DNA from: Cyanomargarita calcarea GSE-NOS-MK-12-04C
GTDB lineage: Bacteria > Cyanobacteriota > Cyanobacteriia > Cyanobacteriales > Nostocaceae
NCBI GenBank assembly: GCA_019359595.1
Contig: JAHHGZ010000013.1
Location: 62,001 to 126,000, forward strand
DNA length: 64,000 nucleotides
Reading direction: 5' to 3'
The stretch's first letter is position 1; each line of letters begins with the position of its first letter. Both the position numbers and the translations under genes were made by a program. The notes under the pieces were generated by a model. It was given only the letters and a program-made list of their open reading frames with translations, was not told where the DNA came from and searched no databases. Shown here piece by piece: positions 20,324 to 31,676 of this stretch.

Positions 20324-20355
20324 ATGTAGAGACGTTACATATCACGTCTCTACAT
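20324..20355 (-). terminator. Hairpin overlapping the stop codon of the WD40 gene
   Basis: ATGTAGAGACG (20324-20334) pairs with CGTCTCTACAT (20345-20355), an 11-bp stem with a 10-base loop. The right arm contains the stop codon of the last operon gene (20350-20352). No T-run follows, so it may be a processing/stability element at the operon end. Confidence 0.5.
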
Positions 20356-21837
20356 AAGTTGATAAATATTAATTAGTTGGTCTTTACTACCACTCACAAT
20401 AGTTTGACCATCTGGACTAATAGCAACACAATAAACTTCCTTGGAATGACAATCTAAACTAGAAAGTAATTCACCCGTACTCAATTTCCAGAGTTTAACA
20501 GTTTTATCTCCACTACCACTCAGAAGGGTTTTTCCATCAGGACTAATCGCAACGGACCAAACCTCTTTTAAATGACCTGTGAGGGTGTGTTGTAATTCCC
20601 CTGTATTTAGGTTCCACAGCCTAATAGTATGCTTAATACTACCACAAGCAAGAGTTTCTCCATCCGGACTAATAGCAACTGACCAAAATAAATCGGAATA
20701 TCCAGAAATAGTTCTAATTAATTCCCGAGTATCTAGATTCCATAGTTTGATAGTATTATCAAAACCGCTGCTAGCAAGAACATATCCATTGGGGCTAAAA
20801 ACAAGTGAAATAACTGCACCATGATGTCCAGTAAAAGTTTGAAGTAATTCCCCAGTTTCTAGATTCCAAATTTTAATAGTTTCGTCACGACTACCACTAG
20901 CAATAAGTTCTCCATTTGGACTCACGGCAACACAATCAATCCAACCCGAATGACCAGTTAGAAAATTTTTTAATTTGCCGTTGGTGATTTTCCAAATCTT
21001 AATAGTTTCATGATCGCTACCACTAACGAGGGTTTCCCCATCCGGACTAATAGCAACAGAATTAAACCTAGAATATCCACTAATAGTATTAATGATTGTT
21101 CCTGACTGTAAATCCCAAATTTTGATTGTGTTATCAAAACCCCCGCTAGCCAAAACATTACCTTGAGGACTTATAGCAATGGAACGTATTGAGTTTGTAT
21201 GTCCGGTTAAAGTATGTAATAATTTAGGTATTGGTGTTTCTTCAATACCTTCCTCAAAATCTCCATCGCTGGGTGAAGTGCTAGCAAAATTCAATCTACC
21301 AGGTTCTACTAACATCCATTGCTCTCCCCCTGCTGCTAAAGAGACTGTGGCAGGTTTTATCAAAGTAAATTCGCTGTCTGAATTTACTTCATAACCATCG
21401 CATTCAAATAGAGATTTAACTGTTTGATAGTTATAGGTGTCAATCCTGAGATTAGCTTTAGGTAATAGCCAGTAATTATCATCCTCTGTAGCGACAATCC
21501 AATAATTACCTTTTTTTCTTTCTGCCAAAAAGATAGAGTTACTAGATTTTTTTAACAAGCTATCTTCTGTTAATGAAACTTTTAATACTTTATTGAATAA
21601 AGCTGAACAATCATTATTGTAAAGTTCTACTAATTCTGGTTCTGAATAATTAATCTTAATAATGTTAGGTCTTTCCAAAGAGCCAGTTACCGACACTGCA
21701 TCTGTGTCAATTAAATTATTTCCTTGTTGTAAAGACTTCTCAACAAAAATTAACCTACGTTCTAATTGATGAATTGTCTCAATTAGGTAGTTAATCTTTT
21801 CTTCCAGTTCTGCAAAATTTTGCTCAGAATCTGCCAT
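20350..21837 (-). CDS. WD40-repeat protein with GNYW-type N-terminal domain (operon gene 6)
   Basis: The 495-residue protein has a short coiled coil (5-40), then at ~64-184 the ~115-residue domain shared with the two genes upstream (ERKKGNYWIV, YWLLPKANLRIDTYNY, FTLIKPATVS). After an acidic linker, seven WD40 repeats (~208-495) each end like IKIWDL or VKLWKL. The propeller is probably a binding platform for the other operon products. No signal peptide or TM is seen. It starts 8 bases after the stop of the lipoprotein gene, so translational coupling is likely. The function is not known; the shared domain implies it acts with its neighbours. Confidence 0.8.
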   Translation of the reverse strand: MADSEQNFAELEEKINYLIETIHQLERRLIFVEKSLQQGNNLIDTDAVSVTGSLERPNIIKINYSEPELVELYNNDCSALFNKVLKVSLTEDSLLKKSSNSIFLAERKKGNYWIVATEDDNYWLLPKANLRIDTYNYQTVKSLFECDGYEVNSDSEFTLIKPATVSLAAGGEQWMLVEPGRLNFASTSPSDGDFEEGIEETPIPKLLHTLTGHTNSIRSIAISPQGNVLASGGFDNTIKIWDLQSGTIINTISGYSRFNSVAISPDGETLVSGSDHETIKIWKITNGKLKNFLTGHSGWIDCVAVSPNGELIASGSRDETIKIWNLETGELLQTFTGHHGAVISLVFSPNGYVLASSGFDNTIKLWNLDTRELIRTISGYSDLFWSVAISPDGETLACGSIKHTIRLWNLNTGELQHTLTGHLKEVWSVAISPDGKTLLSGSGDKTVKLWKLSTGELLSSLDCHSKEVYCVAISPDGQTIVSGSKDQLINIYQLM

Positions 21838-21845
21838 ATTTCCAA

Positions 21846-23210
21846 TTAAAATTCTAGCACTCCGTAGTCAGCAAGTTCCCACATTTTTTGACCAATGGCA
21901 GAGACTCTTGCAGGTCTGACAAGTTGAAAGTCACTGGAGTAACCAGGACGGTAACTATGACAATCAAACAATGCTTCAACTGTTTCATAGTTATATTCAT
22001 TTATTTTGATATTCCCTTTTGGAAGCAAGTAGTCTACACCTTGTTCAGATACAATCCAATAATTACCTTTGCCTTTGCCAACTTTTTCCAAAATTGCTGC
22101 ACGATCGCTACCAACACGACGTTGATTAATGCTTTCTTCTGTTTCTGAAACTTCTATAGCAATTTTTAACAATGAATTACGATTTTTATTATAAGCTCCA
22201 ACTAGGATACTTTCAGGAGAATTAAAATTTTCATTTGCAATTCTTTGCTGACTGTGAGAATCTGGAGTGTAAACTTCTTCCGAGAATTTCAGTGGTGTAA
22301 TTTCTATACCCTTTGTCGGTGAAGGTGAAGTATGTTGCTCCATAGATATCTGAGGAGAAACTGATTCCTTCAGATGACCATATACTTGCTTGTTAGGAGC
22401 CAAATTTTGTTTATTGTTTCTATGTTCTTGTTTGGGATTAGCATAACGATCTTTATAAATAAACATTGCGATCGCTCCGATAATTATACCAGCTACAAAG
22501 GAGACAAGAGAGAGTGCTAACAAGCCGGATGAGGACTTTTGTGAGTTTTGATTCTCTACTCCTAAATTGCGATTGTTATTCGGAATATTCTCAATTGGCT
22601 TAGTATCAGTAGCGACTGTTCCTAACTGTTGAATTTGATTGCTTAAATCTTCACTTTTTTTAGTTAGATATTCTTGAATTTCACCTTGAGTTATTTTACC
22701 AAAGGAGCCTTTGTTGCGACTAACTTCAGGATTTTTATCAATTCCAAGAGTTTCTTGTATTTGTTTAACAGCTTTAAAATTTAAACCGCTTTTTAAAGGT
22801 TCAATAACCTTTAAAATATCTTGAATTGTATTATCTATATTTGTTAAAATGTTGCTGTTTACATCAGATGTTAGTATTGTTTTCCGGAAATTATTATTTT
22901 CTAAACTCAGTTGTTGCAGCTTTTCCAATGTTGCACTAGAATTTACATCCTTTTTGTCTATTTTTTGATTAACTACTTGTTGAAGTTGAATCAATAATTC
23001 ATCAAGTGCAAGCTTAAATTCGCTAGATATAGTTCTAAGTTGACTAACCTCTGAAACTGTATTTTGAGACGCTCCACTATTACTTTGGATAGTAATTAGT
23101 TTCGTGGTATCACTTTCATCGGCACGGTTTTGTACTGGTTGACAGCCAATTAAGAAACTAGGAACTATCAGTAATGCCAGTAATGATTTATAAATTGTTC
23201 GTTTTGCCAT
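21846..23210 (-). CDS. Lipoprotein/TM protein with C-terminal GNYW-type domain (operon gene 5)
   Basis: The 454-residue protein (ATG 23210; a GTG two codons earlier is possible) has a signal ending LIVPSFLIGC, a lipobox-like site at Cys23. A helical region with two LxxLxxxN-rich heptads (~65-180) follows, then one TM (~229-252, LLALSLVSFVAGIIIGAIAMFIY), a polar linker and the shared domain (~332-454: TEESINQRRVGS, GKGKGNYWIVSEQG, VDYLLPKGNIKINEYNY, FQLVRPARVS). The TM would put the helical part outside and the shared domain in the cytoplasm. That topology could couple an envelope sensor to cytoplasmic partners. Confidence 0.75.
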   Translation of the reverse strand: MAKRTIYKSLLALLIVPSFLIGCQPVQNRADESDTTKLITIQSNSGASQNTVSEVSQLRTISSEFKLALDELLIQLQQVVNQKIDKKDVNSSATLEKLQQLSLENNNFRKTILTSDVNSNILTNIDNTIQDILKVIEPLKSGLNFKAVKQIQETLGIDKNPEVSRNKGSFGKITQGEIQEYLTKKSEDLSNQIQQLGTVATDTKPIENIPNNNRNLGVENQNSQKSSSGLLALSLVSFVAGIIIGAIAMFIYKDRYANPKQEHRNNKQNLAPNKQVYGHLKESVSPQISMEQHTSPSPTKGIEITPLKFSEEVYTPDSHSQQRIANENFNSPESILVGAYNKNRNSLLKIAIEVSETEESINQRRVGSDRAAILEKVGKGKGNYWIVSEQGVDYLLPKGNIKINEYNYETVEALFDCHSYRPGYSSDFQLVRPARVSAIGQKMWELADYGVLEF

Positions 23211-23256
23211 TAACACCCCACTTTCTAACTTTGAATAAAACTACCTATCCATTAAA

Positions 23257-24522
23257 TTAAAATTTCAGTACACCAAGTTTTGTAAGTTGCCATTTTTCTG
23301 GTTCGATAGGAGATACTATTGCAGGTTGAAGGAGGATGAATTTACTATTATAATTATCTCCCTGCTCTTTAATACACTCAAACAAAGTTTGAACTGTTGC
23401 TATATTATATTGATTTATTTTTAGATAAGCTTTAGGGACTAAATAGAATTCAGTATTACTTTTAGGTAATATCCAATAATTTCCCTTACCCCGACGAGAG
23501 TTTTCTAGAATTACTGGTTGATTCGTTCCCAGACGACGCTGATTAATATTTTCTTCTGTTACTGATACTTCTGTTGCATGTTGGGATAAGGATTCTGGGT
23601 CTTGATTGTAAGTTATTAGCCAGGGAATATCTGAAAAAGCATCAGGCTCATTTTCAGAAGCTTGTTGTGGAATATCTTCCGGTTGAATTTGATAATTTTG
23701 GTTGACTTCATAACCTGTCATCCTCTCGGCAGGGGGAGTATTACTATTGGTATTTAAATTAGTTTTGATTTCTTTGATTTCAGTGAATAATATCGCTAAA
23801 TTATCATTGATTTGCTGTAACTGCGATTCAACTAGGTTGTTATTTTCTAATACAGGCTGAGTAGAGATTTTACGCTCGATTAAATTAGCCACTTGGGAGG
23901 GAATTAGCAGTATCGTTTGTTCCAGTTTCTCTATCTGAGACTGGGATTGTAATTCATTTCTACTTGATGGTTGTCTATGTGCTGCAGTCGGTGTTAAATT
24001 AGGTTGAATATGTTGTTTTTGTAACTCAGATATTCGTTTGGACAGATTATTAGTGAATGCGGAGAATATATGCTGACTGTTCGGTACAATCGAGACGTTT
24101 AATTCTCTTAAATCAGATTCAAGTTTGCTAAACTCTTCGAGTAATCGCTTAGATTGAGATTGAACAAGTGATAATTGCTTTTCTAACTCTTTAATCTGAG
24201 ACTGCAATCGCTGGATTTCATCTTCATCTTGCTTCTGCGAATTATCCGCAACCTGATTAAAAACGTCGTCTGTTAAAGATGAATGGTGACGATTGAAGTC
24301 TTGATTTGATTTTGCCGACTGCTGCTTTAATTGCGAGTATTCTTTATATAACTTATTTGCCCATACAAGCAACTCGTGTTGTAGTGACTCCGATTTTCCA
24401 GAAGCCATTTTTTCCCACAAACTATAGCTGATAGAAGGAGGTATTACAGGAAAGCCACAGTTTGAACAATCTTTATGATTTTTAGTGTCAACTTGAGTTC
24501 CACAAACTGGACATGGTGACAT
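23257..24522 (-). CDS. Zinc-ribbon coiled-coil protein with C-terminal GNYW-type domain (operon gene 4)
   Basis: The 421-residue protein opens with a zinc ribbon, CPVCGTQ (Cys4, Cys7) and CSNCGFP (Cys19, Cys22). It continues with long coiled coils (~55-140, EIQRLQSQIKELEKQLSLV; and ~185-260) and ends with the shared domain (~302-421: TEENINQRRLGT, RRGKGNYWILPKSN, YLVPKAYLKINQYNI, FILLQPAIVS). No TM. It is probably a cytoplasmic adaptor. A 144-base gap with a HIP1 site separates it from the upstream ATPase gene and could hold an internal promoter. Confidence 0.75.
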   Translation of the reverse strand: MSPCPVCGTQVDTKNHKDCSNCGFPVIPPSISYSLWEKMASGKSESLQHELLVWANKLYKEYSQLKQQSAKSNQDFNRHHSSLTDDVFNQVADNSQKQDEDEIQRLQSQIKELEKQLSLVQSQSKRLLEEFSKLESDLRELNVSIVPNSQHIFSAFTNNLSKRISELQKQHIQPNLTPTAAHRQPSSRNELQSQSQIEKLEQTILLIPSQVANLIERKISTQPVLENNNLVESQLQQINDNLAILFTEIKEIKTNLNTNSNTPPAERMTGYEVNQNYQIQPEDIPQQASENEPDAFSDIPWLITYNQDPESLSQHATEVSVTEENINQRRLGTNQPVILENSRRGKGNYWILPKSNTEFYLVPKAYLKINQYNIATVQTLFECIKEQGDNYNSKFILLQPAIVSPIEPEKWQLTKLGVLKF

Positions 24523-24666: not shown

Positions 24667-27600
24667 TTATTTTGACCATTTGTCTGCCCAATCCTTACCT
24701 AAAACCCGCATTAAGGCCTTTAAAGCCAATATATAGGGAGGCTCTAAGCGAATGTTATCTGATTTACCTTTGATTTTCAGCAAGATGTTAGTCAATTCTC
24801 GCTTAGTGTCATCCCAAAGTTTTTTATTATCTTGGGGATTTGGACTGCGTTTGTACCCCTCCAGCGGTTTTATTCCCTCAATTTCTAAGTCTCTCAAAGC
24901 TACATGAAAGTCATATAGAAACTGTGGCAATATTGCTAATTCTGGAATTGTAAATTGCTCAACATTATCCTCATCTTCTTGTAATTCCAATCGAGCATCC
25001 CAATTAATTAATCTGCCATTAATCTCACAATCTTCTCCTGCAATTAATGGGTCTTTTACTTTTTTCTTTAGTCCTTGGAGTTTGGTTTCACTCAATACCA
25101 AACCGCAAGCAACTTCATCTTTTAAATTCTGACTCAATCGTGTTTTTACTTCTGTATCTTCAAAGCCAGAACCTTTACTCAACATTCTACTTAGTAATTC
25201 ATTCACCTCAGAATGACGGTTAAATTCACCTCCTTCAGCAAGCCAGTGTAAAAATCTACCCCCATTTCCACCGATGTAAACAGGAGTAATTTCACTACGT
25301 CGATACTTCTCTTCTACGTGTAAAGTTTTCAGCAAAATTCCTACATAATAATATAACCCAGCTGTGCCAATTGCCGTGAGTTGTATCAATTCTTGAAAAT
25401 CTGGCTTTTCTGATACAAATGCTCTTTGACTATTGAGCCAATTATCACCTTCCAATCGCAGCCATACATCTAATTTGGGATTAAATGCTGTACCTTTGAG
25501 TCCTTTTAATTCAGTCGCATCAATCCCAAATGTCCGCTGCATAAACTTAGGATTTATCTCTAAAAATTGCGAAAATAAATCCCTACCTGCAAACAAAACT
25601 GAACACTGATGTACTAAATTTTCTTCTTCCCAAATTGATATATCCGAAGTTCCTCCACCCACATCAATACAGGTAGTATTAACTAAATCATGACCTTCCT
25701 GGTCGGCAAAATATTGAGCTACAGCTAAACTTTCAGAACGGAAGTAATCTAAATTATCGACTTCTGGACAAAGATGAATAATTCCTGTTTTACTTTGCAA
25801 TTCTTTGGTTAAATCTTGCCATGTTTTCGCATATTTATTTTTGTCACTGCGAGAAAAAGCAGAGGGAAAAGATAAAGACCATTGAATCTGTTTTACCCGA
25901 TTCTTTGCTGCTATAGCTGTAATGTGTAGGGCTAAGTGTTTGAGAAATAACTGATTGAAACTTAAATTTTGTGGATCTTCCCACTTCAAATTTGTTTTGA
26001 TCCAGTCTTCTTGAGGCTTGAATCTGTTGCGATCGGGCACATAAATTCGACCGTCAAAAACTGGACGTAATTTTTCATGACTAACCCCGGAATTCCCTCT
26101 AATTGTCAGTACACTAGATAGAGGTAATGGCTTTTCTACAGGGATAAAGTTTTCTGGGATAAAGTATTCATACAGCAGTGGTAAGCGAGTTTCTGGGTTA
26201 AATTCTGTGATTTTGAGATGCAAATTCTCAAGTTTCAATGGTTCCGCAGCACCTGTCCTATTGACATAGACATTGGTAAAAGAAGTCCCAAAATCGACGC
26301 CAATTTTCCATGTAGTTGTGGGCTTAGTTTCTTTCGGAGGTTGCAAAAGAATCAGACCGACAGTTGTCCTTCTATCTTTGGTCTGACATTGAATAAAAGA
26401 TGGAAATTTTTCCAGAATAGACATTTGATAAGAACCTCTACCATCTTCAAAGTCGTAGGGTTGCTTTGCTTCTGGTAAAAACACCTGAAAAGTATCCTTT
26501 CCATGTTCACCATCATAGTAAAATGCGTGATAGGATTTCCAGCCTTCCGAGCGGAAATTCGGCCATACTTCTAAGACGGGTACTTCAGCAAGGGCATTTT
26601 CTTCTTTGATGAAATAATCTTTCTGCAAGCGGAAATTAGTTGGGGGATTGCCATCCTTTAAACCAGCAAGAGGCAAATCCAAAATAACTCGCACTTGGGG
26701 CCCATTATTATCATTAAAGGGTTGGAGTTTAATTTTTTCAATTAAATCTTCTGGGGTGAAATAATCTAACAAAATTGGATTTAGGGGAAGAAGTGGGGTA
26801 ATCCGCTCACCCTCGAAAGTTAAAGGTAATATTTCTTTAGGGAGAAAAGCCCCTGGCAAGGCATCTTCTTGGTTGATAAAACAAAATTCTGCTAAAAATA
26901 AATCCTTGGATTCACAGTATCTAACATCCTGCCAAACAATTTTTTTGCTGCGTAAATCATCCACCTTTAAAGATGCGAGAGTTTTGCCTCCATGAACCCA
27001 GATATGTTGCGGTGATTCATGCCATCTATCGGCAATTTCTGTGTCAATAATTAGTAAATCAATTACTTTACCTTTTTCTAAGCTAGGAATTAAACGGACA
27101 CTGGATGGTTTTTCCGGTGCTTTAACAGGAAAATTTAGAGCAGTTAATACCCCACGATTCAGGGGAACGCCAAAAAACTGCGGGTCTTCAGTTAAACTCA
27201 GAGGTGGCTCATTATCTGCATTTAATTCTGCCCGAAAGTCGTCAATTAATCCACCAATTCTATTAATTGCAGCCTTCCTACCTCCATATTTATTTAACTC
27301 CATGCGGATATTTTCTAACCAACGCCATAATAGAGATTTTTCACTTGAGTTAAGATATTTAATTGGAGAACGCAATCTCCCATCTGACCACCAAGGTAAA
27401 CCTTTCCATTGTCCCTCTTCTGAAGGAGAAACTAAGGTACTTGGTGAAGTCATTCCGACGGCTTTGTTATCCCATAAAAATATGTAAATATCTTCCCAGG
27501 GATGCTTATTTTCTAAGGTGTAAAGAGTATTGCCGTCAAAAGGTAAAAGCTCATATAAAGAACGGGCAAAATCTTCATGTCTTAACTTGCTAAGTTCTAC

Positions 27601-27936
27601 CAATTGTGCAATTAAGGGAAAACCACGCACCTCAGCTAAAGCGATCGCAGCCAACATCCCCTGCCACTGCTCAATCATTTGGTTGCGAATAGCATACTGA
27701 TCATTATGGAGTGCCATTTCCATCGACAAGGGACGTGCCCACATTGTCGGGACGGAACTAACATTCTTCACCTCTCTCGGGGCTTTATACTCTAAGCTAG
27801 AAGCCACATCTTGAAATGCTTTTCTTTTTTGTGCCTGCCATTTTCCGGCTTCATCAATCGGCTTAACGTCAGAATCTGGCTTTAATCTTGGTAGAAAAAA
27901 ATGCAACTTTTTGTTACCTGGTTGTGTGTTTGTCAT
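24667..27936 (-). CDS. Large protein with C-terminal actin/Hsp70-type ATPase domain (operon gene 3)
   Basis: A 1089-residue protein. The C-terminal half is an actin/Hsp70-fold ATPase: phosphate-1 loop VDFGTSFTNVYV (547-558), ESLAVAQYFADQEG (735-748), phosphate-2 loop CIDVGGGTSDISIW (756-769) and adenosine loop YIGGNGGRF (887-895). Residues 1-540 match nothing I know; they are mixed alpha/beta, rich in Trp and Pro, with no signal peptide or TM. No Hsp70 substrate-binding domain is visible after the ATPase. It starts 10 bases after the tubulin-like gene. It likely hydrolyses ATP as a switch or filament; its substrate and partner remain unknown. Confidence 0.8.
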   Translation of the reverse strand: MTNTQPGNKKLHFFLPRLKPDSDVKPIDEAGKWQAQKRKAFQDVASSLEYKAPREVKNVSSVPTMWARPLSMEMALHNDQYAIRNQMIEQWQGMLAAIALAEVRGFPLIAQLVELSKLRHEDFARSLYELLPFDGNTLYTLENKHPWEDIYIFLWDNKAVGMTSPSTLVSPSEEGQWKGLPWWSDGRLRSPIKYLNSSEKSLLWRWLENIRMELNKYGGRKAAINRIGGLIDDFRAELNADNEPPLSLTEDPQFFGVPLNRGVLTALNFPVKAPEKPSSVRLIPSLEKGKVIDLLIIDTEIADRWHESPQHIWVHGGKTLASLKVDDLRSKKIVWQDVRYCESKDLFLAEFCFINQEDALPGAFLPKEILPLTFEGERITPLLPLNPILLDYFTPEDLIEKIKLQPFNDNNGPQVRVILDLPLAGLKDGNPPTNFRLQKDYFIKEENALAEVPVLEVWPNFRSEGWKSYHAFYYDGEHGKDTFQVFLPEAKQPYDFEDGRGSYQMSILEKFPSFIQCQTKDRRTTVGLILLQPPKETKPTTTWKIGVDFGTSFTNVYVNRTGAAEPLKLENLHLKITEFNPETRLPLLYEYFIPENFIPVEKPLPLSSVLTIRGNSGVSHEKLRPVFDGRIYVPDRNRFKPQEDWIKTNLKWEDPQNLSFNQLFLKHLALHITAIAAKNRVKQIQWSLSFPSAFSRSDKNKYAKTWQDLTKELQSKTGIIHLCPEVDNLDYFRSESLAVAQYFADQEGHDLVNTTCIDVGGGTSDISIWEEENLVHQCSVLFAGRDLFSQFLEINPKFMQRTFGIDATELKGLKGTAFNPKLDVWLRLEGDNWLNSQRAFVSEKPDFQELIQLTAIGTAGLYYYVGILLKTLHVEEKYRRSEITPVYIGGNGGRFLHWLAEGGEFNRHSEVNELLSRMLSKGSGFEDTEVKTRLSQNLKDEVACGLVLSETKLQGLKKKVKDPLIAGEDCEINGRLINWDARLELQEDEDNVEQFTIPELAILPQFLYDFHVALRDLEIEGIKPLEGYKRSPNPQDNKKLWDDTKRELTNILLKIKGKSDNIRLEPPYILALKALMRVLGKDWADKWSK

Positions 27937-27946
27937 AAGCGACTTT

Positions 27947-29458
27947 TTAGAGTCTAGAGAGAATATAAAGAGCTTTAGCCAGTCCTGCCGTACCTTGATT
28001 TGGTGGCATGAGATTTTTGGGTTCAGATATTAGATTTACGTGCAAACTCTGTACTGTATCTTGCGATTGTTTACCTTTATCTCGACTATCACTTATTACT
28101 AAATTGGGAAATTCTTCTTGTTTGAGTTGGACTTCAGAATTCATAAAAGAACGAGACATAAATAGTTGCACATTATCACCTTCACAAAGATGAAGTTCCG
28201 ACAACCAGCGCAAATAATCTTTACACCAATTGCTGACAATTGTTATTGTTTCTTGTTCATTTGTGTCACCAAACTCTGGTAAATCCTCTCCCCTCTTGAT
28301 GAAAAATCCTTGTTTAGGACGAAAAAACCTGCTAAACCAAGTAATATATTTTTGTGCCCACTCAATGCCATTATCTTTTGCATCCTTCAAGTCTGGAGCA
28401 GTCTTAGCTAGCCAAGCATAAGCAAATCTCGTGGCATTAACTAATTCAGCTTTAATTATACTTTGCTCTGGAATATCGCTCCAACCTAATACCTCCAGCC
28501 GATCCCGACCAATTAACATCACCGTGCCAGACATAACAGTTGGACTCAAAAAAAACTGTCGGGCTGCAGATGCGGCATATAATTCAATAAAATGTGACTC
28601 ATTGCGTTGTTCGTTTTTGCCGATACTAAACTTCACTTGCTTGAAGTTTTGATTACCCAATAAATACACCGTATCAAAGATATCTTCGGCTTGACTTTCA
28701 TAGTATCTCAAAGCCGCTTCTGTATTTAGCAAAAATAAATCTGATTGAGCATAAACCCCATCTGGGTCTTTACCTGCATCTGGTGAAAAGCCAAAATAAG
28801 GTAGCATGAATAAACACCCTACCTTAACGCGATCGCGGACGTTAATCTTTTTCAATTTATTCGCAATTAAGCGACCGATAGTCGGCAAGCCAGAGGCACC
28901 AGTACCCCCAAACATGGAACCACACAGAAAAATTTTGGTAGGTTTTCCTGCACCCACATCCGATTGAATTTGACTAATTAACGTCCCCCAAGGCTCATTG
29001 TCTAAAGCATCCAAATCTACCTGACTCATGATTGCCGAACCAATCGCAGGTCTACCCCGAAAACCTACATCTAAGACAACATCCCGCTCTTCTTGCGTAT
29101 ATAGAACATCAAATAAATTCCCCAAACCTTGATAATTTTGTTTGAGATTGTTGTAATTAAAAAATGAGCCAAGAGTCCGATTCGTACTTGTTTCGTTAAA
29201 GGGTGACCATAAATCATACGATTCAATAGGAGTCTTCATCCAAGAAGCTTGCTGTTTCTCACCCTCCTGTAATTTAAAGCATTTTTGATAAACATTTAAA
29301 CTGCTGCGAGTCCGTTCTACATTGCCATTACTTTCATCTGCATCAATAAACAATATCCTAATCGGTTCTTCCGCAAACAACCCGATAGATGCCAAATGAA
29401 TTACTGACTCAATACACTTAGCACCAGTCCCACCAATACCAATAATATAAAATGCCAT
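27947..29458 (-). CDS. Tubulin/FtsZ-like GTPase (tubulin-2-type family; operon gene 2)
   Basis: The 503-residue protein begins AFYIIGIGGTGAKCIESVI, with the nucleotide-binding first loop GIGGTGAK (7-14). The tubulin signature loop is GSMFGGTGASGLPTIG (180-195, core GGTGASG). GFRGRPAIGSAIM (132-144) is also typical of the tubulin-like family that is distinct from FtsZ and TubZ. I do not see the classical NxDxxD T7 catalytic loop, so self-stimulated GTP hydrolysis in a filament is uncertain. It is coupled to the 4-TM gene (4-base gap) and to the ATPase gene (10 bases). Related FtsZ-like families have been predicted to remodel membranes. Confidence 0.82.
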   Translation of the reverse strand: MAFYIIGIGGTGAKCIESVIHLASIGLFAEEPIRILFIDADESNGNVERTRSSLNVYQKCFKLQEGEKQQASWMKTPIESYDLWSPFNETSTNRTLGSFFNYNNLKQNYQGLGNLFDVLYTQEERDVVLDVGFRGRPAIGSAIMSQVDLDALDNEPWGTLISQIQSDVGAGKPTKIFLCGSMFGGTGASGLPTIGRLIANKLKKINVRDRVKVGCLFMLPYFGFSPDAGKDPDGVYAQSDLFLLNTEAALRYYESQAEDIFDTVYLLGNQNFKQVKFSIGKNEQRNESHFIELYAASAARQFFLSPTVMSGTVMLIGRDRLEVLGWSDIPEQSIIKAELVNATRFAYAWLAKTAPDLKDAKDNGIEWAQKYITWFSRFFRPKQGFFIKRGEDLPEFGDTNEQETITIVSNWCKDYLRWLSELHLCEGDNVQLFMSRSFMNSEVQLKQEEFPNLVISDSRDKGKQSQDTVQSLHVNLISEPKNLMPPNQGTAGLAKALYILSRL

Positions 29459-29462
29459 TCCT

Positions 29463-29939
29463 TCAGTTCCTAAATAGACGACGCATTAAAAACGCACCAG
29501 GGGGAACAAAACTTAAACCTCCGGGAGAACTTGTTGCCGTAGTAAACCAATAAAGGAACAGAATATCGAGAACAAAAAAGCTAGTTAAAGACAAAAGTGC
29601 TTCATCGCTTCCCTTAAAAAAGACGATGGCAATAATAATACTCAAAACAGGTAATAAGAAAATTATCCACCACACCACAGACCACTTCTCAACATCCTTC
29701 CCTCCTTTCACTTGAGCTTTAGCAGCCAGTAAATACCACAGCACCGTTGCAACGAGCGAAGCAAAAAATACAACATATGCTCCTGGCATATAATAGTTGC
29801 TTACCCAGGCATCGACAGGCACACTTCGCAACCGTACAAAAGGAAATTTGCTTCGGTAAATCCAAGGTTGCCCCAAAAACATCAAAACTGAGCCGATGAG
29901 GCTGAAAACTATGATCCGAATCCACTCACTCGTTCTCAT
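29463..29939 (-). CDS. Four-TM membrane protein (operon gene 1)
   Basis: The 158-residue protein has hydrophobic segments at ~8-24, ~53-72, ~88-108 and ~113-133, and a basic, Gly/Pro-rich tail (FVPPGAFLMRRLFRN). Four TM helices put both ends on the same side. It has no recognisable domain. As the first gene before the tubulin-like GTPase it may be the membrane anchor for that protein. Composition and Shine-Dalgarno are not informative. Confidence 0.7.
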   Translation of the reverse strand: MRTSEWIRIIVFSLIGSVLMFLGQPWIYRSKFPFVRLRSVPVDAWVSNYYMPGAYVVFFASLVATVLWYLLAAKAQVKGGKDVEKWSVVWWIIFLLPVLSIIIAIVFFKGSDEALLSLTSFFVLDILFLYWFTTATSSPGGLSFVPPGAFLMRRLFRN

Positions 29940-30290
29940 AAGTACAGGTTCGATTTCAGTACTGTTTTAAAAACATATTATAAACCGGGAAACCTTTTTG
30001 CTACATTCAGTAAGAAGAGAAAAGTAGTAATATTTACCTTTTTTTATAAATAGTATCTTGACTTAGTAACTAAGAGGTGATAAGAAAATTTAGTTCTAGA
30101 CTTGAATGTTCTAGCAAAAAGCTCGTTCTGTTCCTTCTAAAAGATTGGTGGTAACTTCTGCCCACCATATCATTGGGTTGGCAACGGCGATCGCATTTAA
30201 GTTATTTTTATAGCTTAAATGCGTGCTAGAGTATGGGCGTAGTACAAACTTTTTTATACGAGTAATATTAATTACTAACTTGTGTGTAAA
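29940..30290. promoter_or_regulatory. Divergent promoter region of the tubulin/actin-like operon and the MIDAS lipoprotein gene
   Basis: A 351-base region with no gene serves both directions. Its main feature is the palindrome at 30192-30223; another is a HIP1-overlapping site at 30188-30195. An AT-rich run (TTTTTTATAC, 30250-30259) lies 30-40 bases before the plus-strand start. Promoter elements cannot be assigned with certainty. Confidence 0.5.
30192..30223. promoter_or_regulatory. 32-base palindrome (possible operator) in the divergent promoter
   Basis: CGCATTTAAG (30192-30201) pairs perfectly with CTTAAATGCG (30214-30223). Inside, TTAT pairs with ATAG including one T-G pair, leaving a TTTT loop, so the whole is a 14-pair stem. 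It sits 68 bases before the plus-strand start and 250 before the minus-strand operon. It could be an operator for a dimeric repressor or an RNA hairpin in the lipoprotein mRNA leader. Confidence 0.6.
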
Positions 30291-31676
30291 ATGATTCGAG
30301 TAAAATCGTTAGTATTGGCGATCGCTACATCGATGTTAGTGGTAGCTTGCAGTCTTGAGAATGAAAAAATCACCTGCGATTTATCCTTAACTAGTATTCA
30401 GTCTCCCCAGTCGCAAAACCTCAGCATTTTTATGTATGTAGACGGGACTCCATCTATGCGGGGATATGTAAATCCTCAAAATACTAAAACTCGCTATGCT
30501 CAAACAATAGATTTGCTAGACCAAATATTATTTGCTGGTGGAACAGTTGCACCTAGAACAAAATCTCAACTCGAATACTATCGTTTGGGAGAAACCAGTG
30601 CAAAAACTGACCGTGATGGATATCTGAAAGCAAGAGATTCTAAATTTTATGATGGTACTGACCCAAAATTTCCCCCACTAAAAGTTAGTAAAATTGAAAC
30701 TGCGATTACTCCTGCTATTGATGGTAAACTGACAGTTATTGTGACTGATTTATATCAAGATGGGGAAGATGTCACTAAACTTAATAAAAAAATCAGAGAT
30801 AATTACTTTAATGCCAATCAAGTAGGATATGCAGTCGGTATTTTAGGAATCAAAAGTGAATTTAATGGCGATATTTTTCTAGAAGATGGCAGTAACAGAA
30901 ATTTTAAATATAATACCAATGATGCTCAAGGTAATAAAGTTAAGGGTCAAGAATTTCGACCTTTTTATATAATTTTCCTTGGTCATTCTAGTGATATAGC
31001 TCACTATTTTAAAAATCTCAGCGATAGTAAAAAATTACCTGAAGATAGTAAATTAGCTATTTTTTCGCCAAATAATTTAGTCAGCGGCTTATCTTATCTC
31101 CAAGGTTATCCTAAACTCCCAGAAGGTTTTAAAACTAGACCACAAGAACTGGGTGATGCCAATGTCATACTAGCAGGAGATGATAAGAGTCAGCTTTTAG
31201 AATTAGAAAGTAATATAAATAATCCTTTAAATATTAATTATAGTGTTCCATTTCAGAGCATCAACAATACATTATTGATAGAATCGAATTCTCTCCAGAC
31301 AGAAACAAAAGTTCAGAGTTTTGATTCGATTGAGAAAAAGTTTAAAGAACCTCCCAATAATTCCTCACTGCTAAAAGCATTGGAACTCAGCAAATGGCAA
31401 ATAGATAATAACAAAAATTTAAACTTTGTCACAACAATCAAACCCAGCGATATTCCAGAAACCGGAATTTATAAATTCACCGTTGATGTGCTAGCTAAAG
31501 GTGTACAAGAGCAAAAATGGTGGTCTGAATGGAGTGCAAATAACAATACCAGTAATGATTGGAGAACCTATAACTTGCAACCCTTTTTACAGGGATTAAA
31601 ATCTAGTACTGACGATATTCTGAAAAATAATAAAGTTGTAGTTGGTCGTTTTTGTTACGGAATTCAGAAGAATTAA
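30291..31676 (+). CDS. Lipoprotein with von Willebrand A-like MIDAS motif
   Basis: The 461-residue protein (ATG 30291) has a signal ending LVVAC, with lipidated Cys20. The metal-ion-dependent adhesion site reads FMYVDGTPSMRGYV (Asp51-x-Thr53-x-Ser55), a variant of DxSxS. The second acidic loop is VIVTDLYQDGED (149-160), where vWA domains have their last MIDAS Asp; IETAIT (135-140) could give the Thr. The following ~300 residues have a strand-rich region with no known domain. It is exported, membrane-anchored and divergent from the operon; vWA-type proteins often accompany FtsZ-like and MoxR-like NTPases. It is probably an outer partner of the machine. Confidence 0.75.
   Translation: MIRVKSLVLAIATSMLVVACSLENEKITCDLSLTSIQSPQSQNLSIFMYVDGTPSMRGYVNPQNTKTRYAQTIDLLDQILFAGGTVAPRTKSQLEYYRLGETSAKTDRDGYLKARDSKFYDGTDPKFPPLKVSKIETAITPAIDGKLTVIVTDLYQDGEDVTKLNKKIRDNYFNANQVGYAVGILGIKSEFNGDIFLEDGSNRNFKYNTNDAQGNKVKGQEFRPFYIIFLGHSSDIAHYFKNLSDSKKLPEDSKLAIFSPNNLVSGLSYLQGYPKLPEGFKTRPQELGDANVILAGDDKSQLLELESNINNPLNINYSVPFQSINNTLLIESNSLQTETKVQSFDSIEKKFKEPPNNSSLLKALELSKWQIDNNKNLNFVTTIKPSDIPETGIYKFTVDVLAKGVQEQKWWSEWSANNNTSNDWRTYNLQPFLQGLKSSTDDILKNNKVVVGRFCYGIQKN

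Follow-up and report, generated by a model that had tools for sequence, protein, structure and literature searches.

A small domain shared by three adjacent cyanobacterial genes as a candidate docking module of an operon with an actin-like ATPase and a Tubulin_2-family GTPase

The window analyzed here is a 64,000-nucleotide stretch of the genome of the cyanobacterium Cyanomargarita calcarea GSE-NOS-MK-12-04C (GCA_019359595.1, contig JAHHGZ010000013.1, positions 62,001 to 126,000 of the forward strand), and its coordinates are counted from its first nucleotide. Three consecutive genes lie on the reverse strand of the window, with gaps of 40 and 8 bases between them. They encode a zinc-ribbon protein with a coiled coil (421 aa; 23257..24522), a protein with a lipobox, an outside coil, and a transmembrane (TM) segment (456 aa; 21846..23216; lipoprotein/TM protein), and a WD40 propeller protein (495 aa; 20350..21837). 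An earlier note, made from the letters of this DNA, had claimed that the three proteins share one domain of ~115 residues for which it knew no family name, and had proposed to search cyanobacteria with a profile of the three copies, to look for other domains beside the copies, and to predict the structure. This unnamed domain is referred to as DOM, a working name.

The common domain was confirmed by the Smith-Waterman scores of the three pairs of copies, which were 269, 183, and 216 compared to a shuffled mean of about 27 (2,000 shuffles per pair; z 32 to 52). The copies occupy aa 302-421 of the zinc-ribbon protein (23260..23619), aa 338-456 of the lipoprotein/TM protein (21849..22205), and aa 68-185 of the WD40 protein (21283..21636), all on the reverse strand. 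The identity to the zinc-ribbon copy was 48% for the lipoprotein/TM copy and 39% for the WD40 copy. The motifs quoted by the earlier note are all present, in the order it gave, in the three copies, and its placement of DOM at the C-termini of two proteins was correct. However, the domain is about 118 aa long rather than ~115, and in the WD40 protein it lies in the N-terminal third, ahead of the propeller, rather than the middle; the best WD40 stretch starts at aa 205. The three copies are the only ones found in the own genome (7.9 Mb, 82 contigs).

Next to the DOM genes on the reverse strand are the genes for an actin-like (ASKHA) ATPase of 1089 aa (24667..27936; motifs DFGTS, DVGGGTSD, and GGNG), a Tubulin_2-family GTPase of 503 aa with a GGTGASG loop (27947..29458), and a small membrane protein of 158 aa conserved in the operon (29463..29939). 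A divergent lipoprotein of 464 aa with the MIDAS-like (metal-ion-dependent adhesion site) motif DGTPS is encoded on the forward strand (30282..31676). Together they represent a conserved but patchy cyanobacterial operon, in which a vWA lipoprotein, a membrane protein, a Tubulin_2 GTPase, and an ATPase of ~1,090 aa are followed by DOM genes. The MIDAS-like motif was found in 20/20 of the divergent lipoproteins and the GGTG loop in 25/25 of the GTPases. The Tubulin_2 profile scored 31.9 bits on the window GTPase, with a cut-off of 27, and matched 19 of 22 family members.

By its sequence profile, the operon ATPase is a member of the actin superfamily. Compared with solved structures, the ATPase profile matched the actin-family structure 8r2n at E 2.1e-4, MreB at 0.0018, and FtsA at 0.007; in Pfam at E<=0.01, FtsA was matched by 21 and MreB by 19 of 30 members, with a best E-value of 4e-5. 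The phosphate-1, phosphate-2, and adenosine motifs are present in the 41 main ATPase rows (the rows of loci L034 and L038 being the same sequence), with single substitutions in a few. An SrfB or HSP70 assignment of the window ATPase was rejected, since no such Pfam match was obtained at E<=1. The division pair FtsZ-FtsA offers a likeness, as here a tubulin-superfamily GTPase is encoded beside an FtsA/MreB-like ATPase and membrane proteins. Nevertheless, the families are others, and the present ATPase carries an extra N-terminal part of ~540 aa and belongs to a patchy accessory operon. A phage origin was also rejected: one DOM copy, compared by tblastn with 50,697 phage records, matched none of them, and PHROGs gave no operon-specific match. 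No description of DOM or its gene set was met in the literature covered, which excluded most subscription papers and preprints.

DOM has no counterpart in the libraries searched. No model of Pfam, NCBIfam, PHROGs, or PADLOC covers it, and in Pfam at E<=1 the DOM part of the window proteins was left without a match. The AlphaFold2 model of DOM (lipoprotein/TM copy, 119 aa), computed from 19 sequences, was confident (pLDDT 92.8, pTM 0.85), and the predicted fold consists of helices at the N-terminus and then mostly strands. With this model, Foldseek against the PDB gave nothing better than E 0.9 and BFVD, a set of viral structures, nothing better than E 0.6; a second look with VIA-align gave a top Z of 2.4, to a ribosomal protein over 72 residues. 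The sequence profile searched against the PDB reached topoisomerase III at E 0.26 only. Going by the model, the fold may be new or very diverged, as absent structural matches do not prove a new fold. Just two polar columns are more than 75% conserved in 63 DOM copies, N6 (79%) and K97 (76%), and the remaining conservation is mainly hydrophobic or glycine/proline. Therefore, DOM looks like a binding module rather than an enzyme.

The distribution of DOM was monitored in one draw of 388 genomes of the class, with E-value cut-offs of 1e-3 for DOM and 1e-5 for the ATPase. The profile of the three window copies matched 23/388 genomes at E<=0.001; at the family level it matched 8 of 60 genomes at E<=0.01, the own genome included and two of the eight being weak. 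The loci fetched (denoted L, and the genomes G) yielded 92 distinct DOM copies in 79 open reading frames (ORFs) at 34 loci, from which a 63-row alignment was built. The best E-value of this 63-row profile in a reversed-sequence control of 2,852 ORFs was 1.2. It detected DOM in 31/388 genomes, and a peculiarity of one genome is thereby rejected. The ATPase was found in 33/388 genomes, and 25 genomes have both (p 5.8e-27); at the genus level, 19 genera are shared between the 22 and the 25, among 160 (p 1.2e-16). DOM is thus a common module of this operon type, and not a widely used domain unrelated to it. Beyond Cyanobacteriota, the coverage consisted of a GTDB contig scan with two narrow patterns and of plasmid and phage searches; the four named matches of the GTDB scan were all cyanobacteria, namely Sphaerospermopsis kisseleviana, Chrysosporum bergii, a Chroococcus, and a Chlorogloea.

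The association holds at the level of gene order. The gene next after a motif-bearing ATPase gene has DOM in 29 of 44 cases at E<=1e-3 and in 34 at E<=0.01, a share that is biased upward because many loci were fetched through DOM; among the loci fetched around ATPase positions, DOM comes next in 10/19 rows at E<=0.01. Ten ATPase genes have no DOM neighbor at E<=0.01. Four of them are broken or lie where their locus or contig ends (L089, L118, L119, L125), another four belong to the most distant set of genomes (L112, L113, L114, L117), and the last two are L122, with an E-value of 0.013, and L134. After dropping matches with a best E above 1e-6, the short duplicate loci L042-L064 and L092-L111, L034, and identical proteins, 72 of 87 DOM genes lie within 8 kb of a core gene, and 15 are on loci without any core gene. 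Operons in decay were also observed: at L118 the ATPase gene is split, and at L128 the vWA and DOM genes persist as remnants.

DOM is joined to varied partners. WD40 propellers occur in 4/93 DOM proteins scanned, and the other domains found beside DOM are a protein kinase (L127), an FGE-sulfatase domain (L088), TM2 (L122), a Reg_prop propeller (L115), and inactive ATPase twins; two DOM copies in one protein also occur. The kinase gene (L127:8718-10760), whose DOM is weak, lies one gene from a RelA/SpoT gene; the genome is small and circular, with L130 and L131 as relatives, and the ATPase was not found there. Downstream of the Reg_prop gene (L115:14594-16873), which belongs to a divergent version of the operon, an ARC6-like IMS domain is encoded; FtsZ is a target of ARC6-like proteins. 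Among the 24 DOM proteins with a signal peptide or TM segment, 21 have an inner TM segment ahead of DOM. In these 21, the DOM side of the TM segment is more positive in 14, equal in 4, and less positive in 3. Since the DOM side is mostly the more positive one, DOM of the TM proteins is probably cytosolic.

In a tree of 95 copies (quick search, 119 columns; L034, L042-L064, L092-L111, short matches, and matches weaker than 1e-6 omitted), a 32-row branch with a support of 98 (Shimodaira-Hasegawa-like approximate likelihood ratio test, SH-aLRT) contains the copies from WD40 proteins, the ATPase-fused ones, and most of those from coiled-coil proteins. The window's zinc-ribbon and TM copies fall outside this WD40-type branch, and the zinc-ribbon copy is nearest by identity to the TM copy. 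Architecture labels, assigned by simple rules, changed 27 times on the tree compared to 57 in shuffles. Because the WD40-type copies form a supported branch apart from the zinc-ribbon and TM copies, the duplication is probably old, as the earlier note had supposed, although a single clade of the three window copies was not rejected in the approximately unbiased (AU) test (p 0.28). A recent duplication was rejected.

A second, degenerate ATPase-like gene is present at five loci (L031:10562-12754, L040:12443-14641, L075:8685-11669, L078:5949-8879, and, on a Gloeothece plasmid, L132:747-3239). The phosphate-2 loop, recognizable in all 41 main ATPase rows, is lost in 5/5 of these twins, and their phosphate-1 loop is altered. 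DOM is fused to two of the twins (L075 and L078); for the remaining three, the overlap with a DOM gene amounts to a few bases. Therefore, DOM is tied physically or translationally to the ATPase family.

Links to conflict systems were observed at several loci. Two genomes encode an ATPase with a caspase domain (Peptidase_C14) fused to its N-terminus, namely G585 (L134:7878-11177; E 9e-13) and G570 (L135:7785-11648; E 6e-13). Both fusions have the GHG and DCC/DAC motifs with the His and Cys residues. The caspase part of L134, searched by sequence against the PDB, had no match at E<=0.01, so that the caspase call rests on Pfam and these motifs. At L135 the caspase-ATPase is accompanied by genes for a vWA lipoprotein and a DOM protein. 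The same genome has a complete operon elsewhere (L136), beside which are two small GTPase-like genes, one with a weak DO-GTPase2 match (E 0.0024, below the cut-off). In G550 (L137), three genes stand between those of the GTPase and the ATPase; they encode an iSTAND protein (E 2e-14), a VWA_CoxE protein (E 6e-11), and an AAA protein that is most like midasin and has the motif GEPGCGKT. Four DOM genes come after the trio and the ATPase. The insertion (L137:2910-6879) looks like one conflict system nested in another.

TIR genes adjoin DOM genes in two places, at L073 (G416) and on the Gloeothece verrucosa plasmid Cy782204. On this mobilizable plasmid (NC_014503.1; strain PCC 7822; L132 and L133) the operon is complete, with five DOM genes, and includes a gene for a periplasmic-binding protein (Peripla_BP_6). 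In a tblastn search with one DOM copy, one of 72,556 plasmid records was matched. The ATPase was also found on plasmids of four further strains, namely Synechococcus sp. NIES-970 and three Picosynechococcus strains with the core on a plasmid (PCC 7003, 73109, and 8807).

We propose that DOM docks exchangeable sensors or receptors onto the ATPase/GTPase core and that the whole works in the style of the predicted nucleoside triphosphate (NTP)-dependent conflict systems of immunity or cell death, a proposal that we consider to stand at about even chances. DOM would be a small, non-enzymatic, cytosolic docking domain, a coupling adaptor resembling the effector-associated domains (EADs), which would hook exchangeable modules onto a core of the actin-like ATPase and the Tubulin_2 GTPase at the inner membrane. 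The modules in the window would be a zinc-ribbon adaptor, a WD40 propeller, and a receptor that spans the membrane and has its coil outside; those in relatives would include a kinase, an FGE-sulfatase-like domain, other propellers, and the inactive ATPase twin. The likeliest docking surface may be the actin-like ATPase. A signal from outside or inside would pass through a DOM protein and make the NTPase core assemble or change state, and linked effectors (caspase, TIR, and STAND-type proteins in relatives) would then act. In favor of the proposal are the co-occurrence and gene order of DOM and the ATPase, the DOM-like stretches kept by the most distant operons, the degenerate twins, L135 with its DOM protein and caspase-ATPase but no GTPase gene, the scarcity of conserved polar columns, the predicted cytosolic side of DOM, and the caspase, iSTAND, TIR, and plasmid links. 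What we show is the domain and its non-enzymatic character, the operon and the co-occurrence, the tie of the dead twins to DOM, and the caspase fusions; the binding partner of DOM, the direction of signaling, and the purpose in defense are what we infer. We regard as unlikely the bolder picture in which a tubulin/actin-like hybrid filament would be the basis of a mobile immune or cell-death machine linked to the membrane, a new-fold adaptor would plug in sensors, and pairs of active and dead ATPases would switch attached caspases.

Several observations weigh against the docking proposal. DOM is not fused to an active ATPase at any locus seen. Six DOM genomes have no detectable ATPase: G026 and G033, which are fragments, G117, G169, and G201, which are weak, and G218, whose congener G289 has both. 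Conversely, eight ATPase genomes have no DOM detectable by the profile, namely G185 with a broken gene, G333 with a completeness of 72%, and the most distant set (G072, G106, G131, G142, G161, and G171). In the most distant set, nevertheless, the gene that follows the ATPase has a divergent DOM-like stretch at its end, and a profile of these six C-termini matched DOM in hhalign with a probability of 97% over 108 columns (E 9e-11, a one-pair E-value for sequences picked by position). L134 has the caspase-ATPase fusion and no DOM gene in its 20 kb; L135 has no GTPase gene in 20 kb and may use that of L136. Most chromosomal operons, the one in the window included, seem to be flanked by ordinary genes (few were scanned), and the window operon has no lethal effector. 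Furthermore, the structure model of the ATPase was unusable (pLDDT 44.7), and the 2023 PADLOC library gave, for seven operon proteins, WD40 and coiled-coil similarities and nothing informative.

Of the known systems, the EADs are described as small domains without enzymatic function, of which one copy sits on a core component and further copies sit on effectors; the copies often lie in neighboring genes, and homotypic contacts are predicted to couple them (Kaur et al. 2020, PMC7159879). DOM resembles the EADs so described in being small and non-enzymatic, in having copies in adjacent genes joined to varied signaling modules, and in having related operons with caspase, iSTAND, AAA, and vWA parts. 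Nevertheless, DOM differs from them in that no active ATPase or GTPase carries it at any locus, only the inactive twins L075 and L078, that its copies seem to fall into two old branches rather than close neighboring pairs, that genomes with a single copy exist, and that the DOM part has no Pfam match at E<=1. The GTPase-centric System 2 of the same paper (PMC7159879) likewise combines vWA proteins near membranes with a tubulin-family protein and with an ATPase from the wider actin/HSP70 superfamily. However, its tubulin theme is described there for firmicutes and actinobacteria, eight window proteins gave no Pfam match to the double GTPase or GAP1 at E<=1, and the ATPase of the window operon is actin/FtsA/MreB-like by profile.

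The homotypic assembly that the earlier note had put forward is the main rival to docking on the ATPase. DOM would then bind DOM and hold the three DOM proteins of the window, together with the inactive ATPase twin in relatives, in one complex. Most loci do have several DOM copies per operon, two may lie within one protein, DOM is fused to inactive twins, and the EADs provide a precedent (PMC7159879). However, four genomes (G139, G215, G293, and G305) have the core genes and a single detectable DOM copy. In these genomes the partner cannot be another DOM protein of a different kind, so that self-association or docking on the core remains. Moreover, the active core proteins are without DOM, and the copies seem to belong to two old branches instead of close neighboring pairs. 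Of the earlier claim, the common module of the operon type stands, and the homotypic assembly is unproven in view of the single-copy genomes; we judge this assembly rather unlikely. As no active core protein has DOM and these four genomes exist, docking on the ATPase is the simplest reading.

Apart from how DOM binds, its operon may serve another purpose. Membrane remodeling has been predicted for FtsZl1 operons, with cyanobacterial members listed (Makarova and Koonin 2010, PMC2875224), and the present operon shares with them a Tubulin_2 GTPase, a vWA protein, and membrane proteins; the actin-like ATPase and a shared adaptor domain are not named in the passages of that paper covered here. Accordingly read, the operon would build a membrane-remodeling or envelope cytoskeleton with DOM as its adaptor, and the caspase, iSTAND, and TIR neighbors would be incidental. 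The FtsA/MreB-like ATPase beside the tubulin-like GTPase and the ARC6-like IMS domain in one divergent operon agree with it, but the patchy presence (33/388), the decay in some genomes, the carriage on plasmids, and the direct caspase-ATPase fusion in two genomes do not, and we consider it possible but somewhat doubtful. Given the caspase, iSTAND, and TIR links and the carriage on plasmids, a conflict role is modestly favored. It is quite improbable, in our view, that DOM is a sensor of a small ligand (a nucleotide, a lipid, or a redox cue) reporting a common signal to each operon protein. Its compact, confidently predicted fold with a conserved aromatic and hydrophobic core and its attachment to many different modules, as is the case for sensor domains, would suit this role; however, having two polar columns above 75%, it shows no obvious conserved polar pocket in the sequence, and it is strongly tied to one ATPase family.

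The profile of this undescribed domain is a searchable handle on an operon family made almost wholly of "hypothetical proteins", and a single predicted system brings together tubulin-like, actin-like, vWA, and caspase parts. Strains with a plasmid-borne core are now identified (Gloeothece PCC 7822 and Picosynechococcus PCC 7003, 73109, and 8807), and the standing prediction on FtsZl1 operons, membrane remodeling versus conflict, is a testable one.

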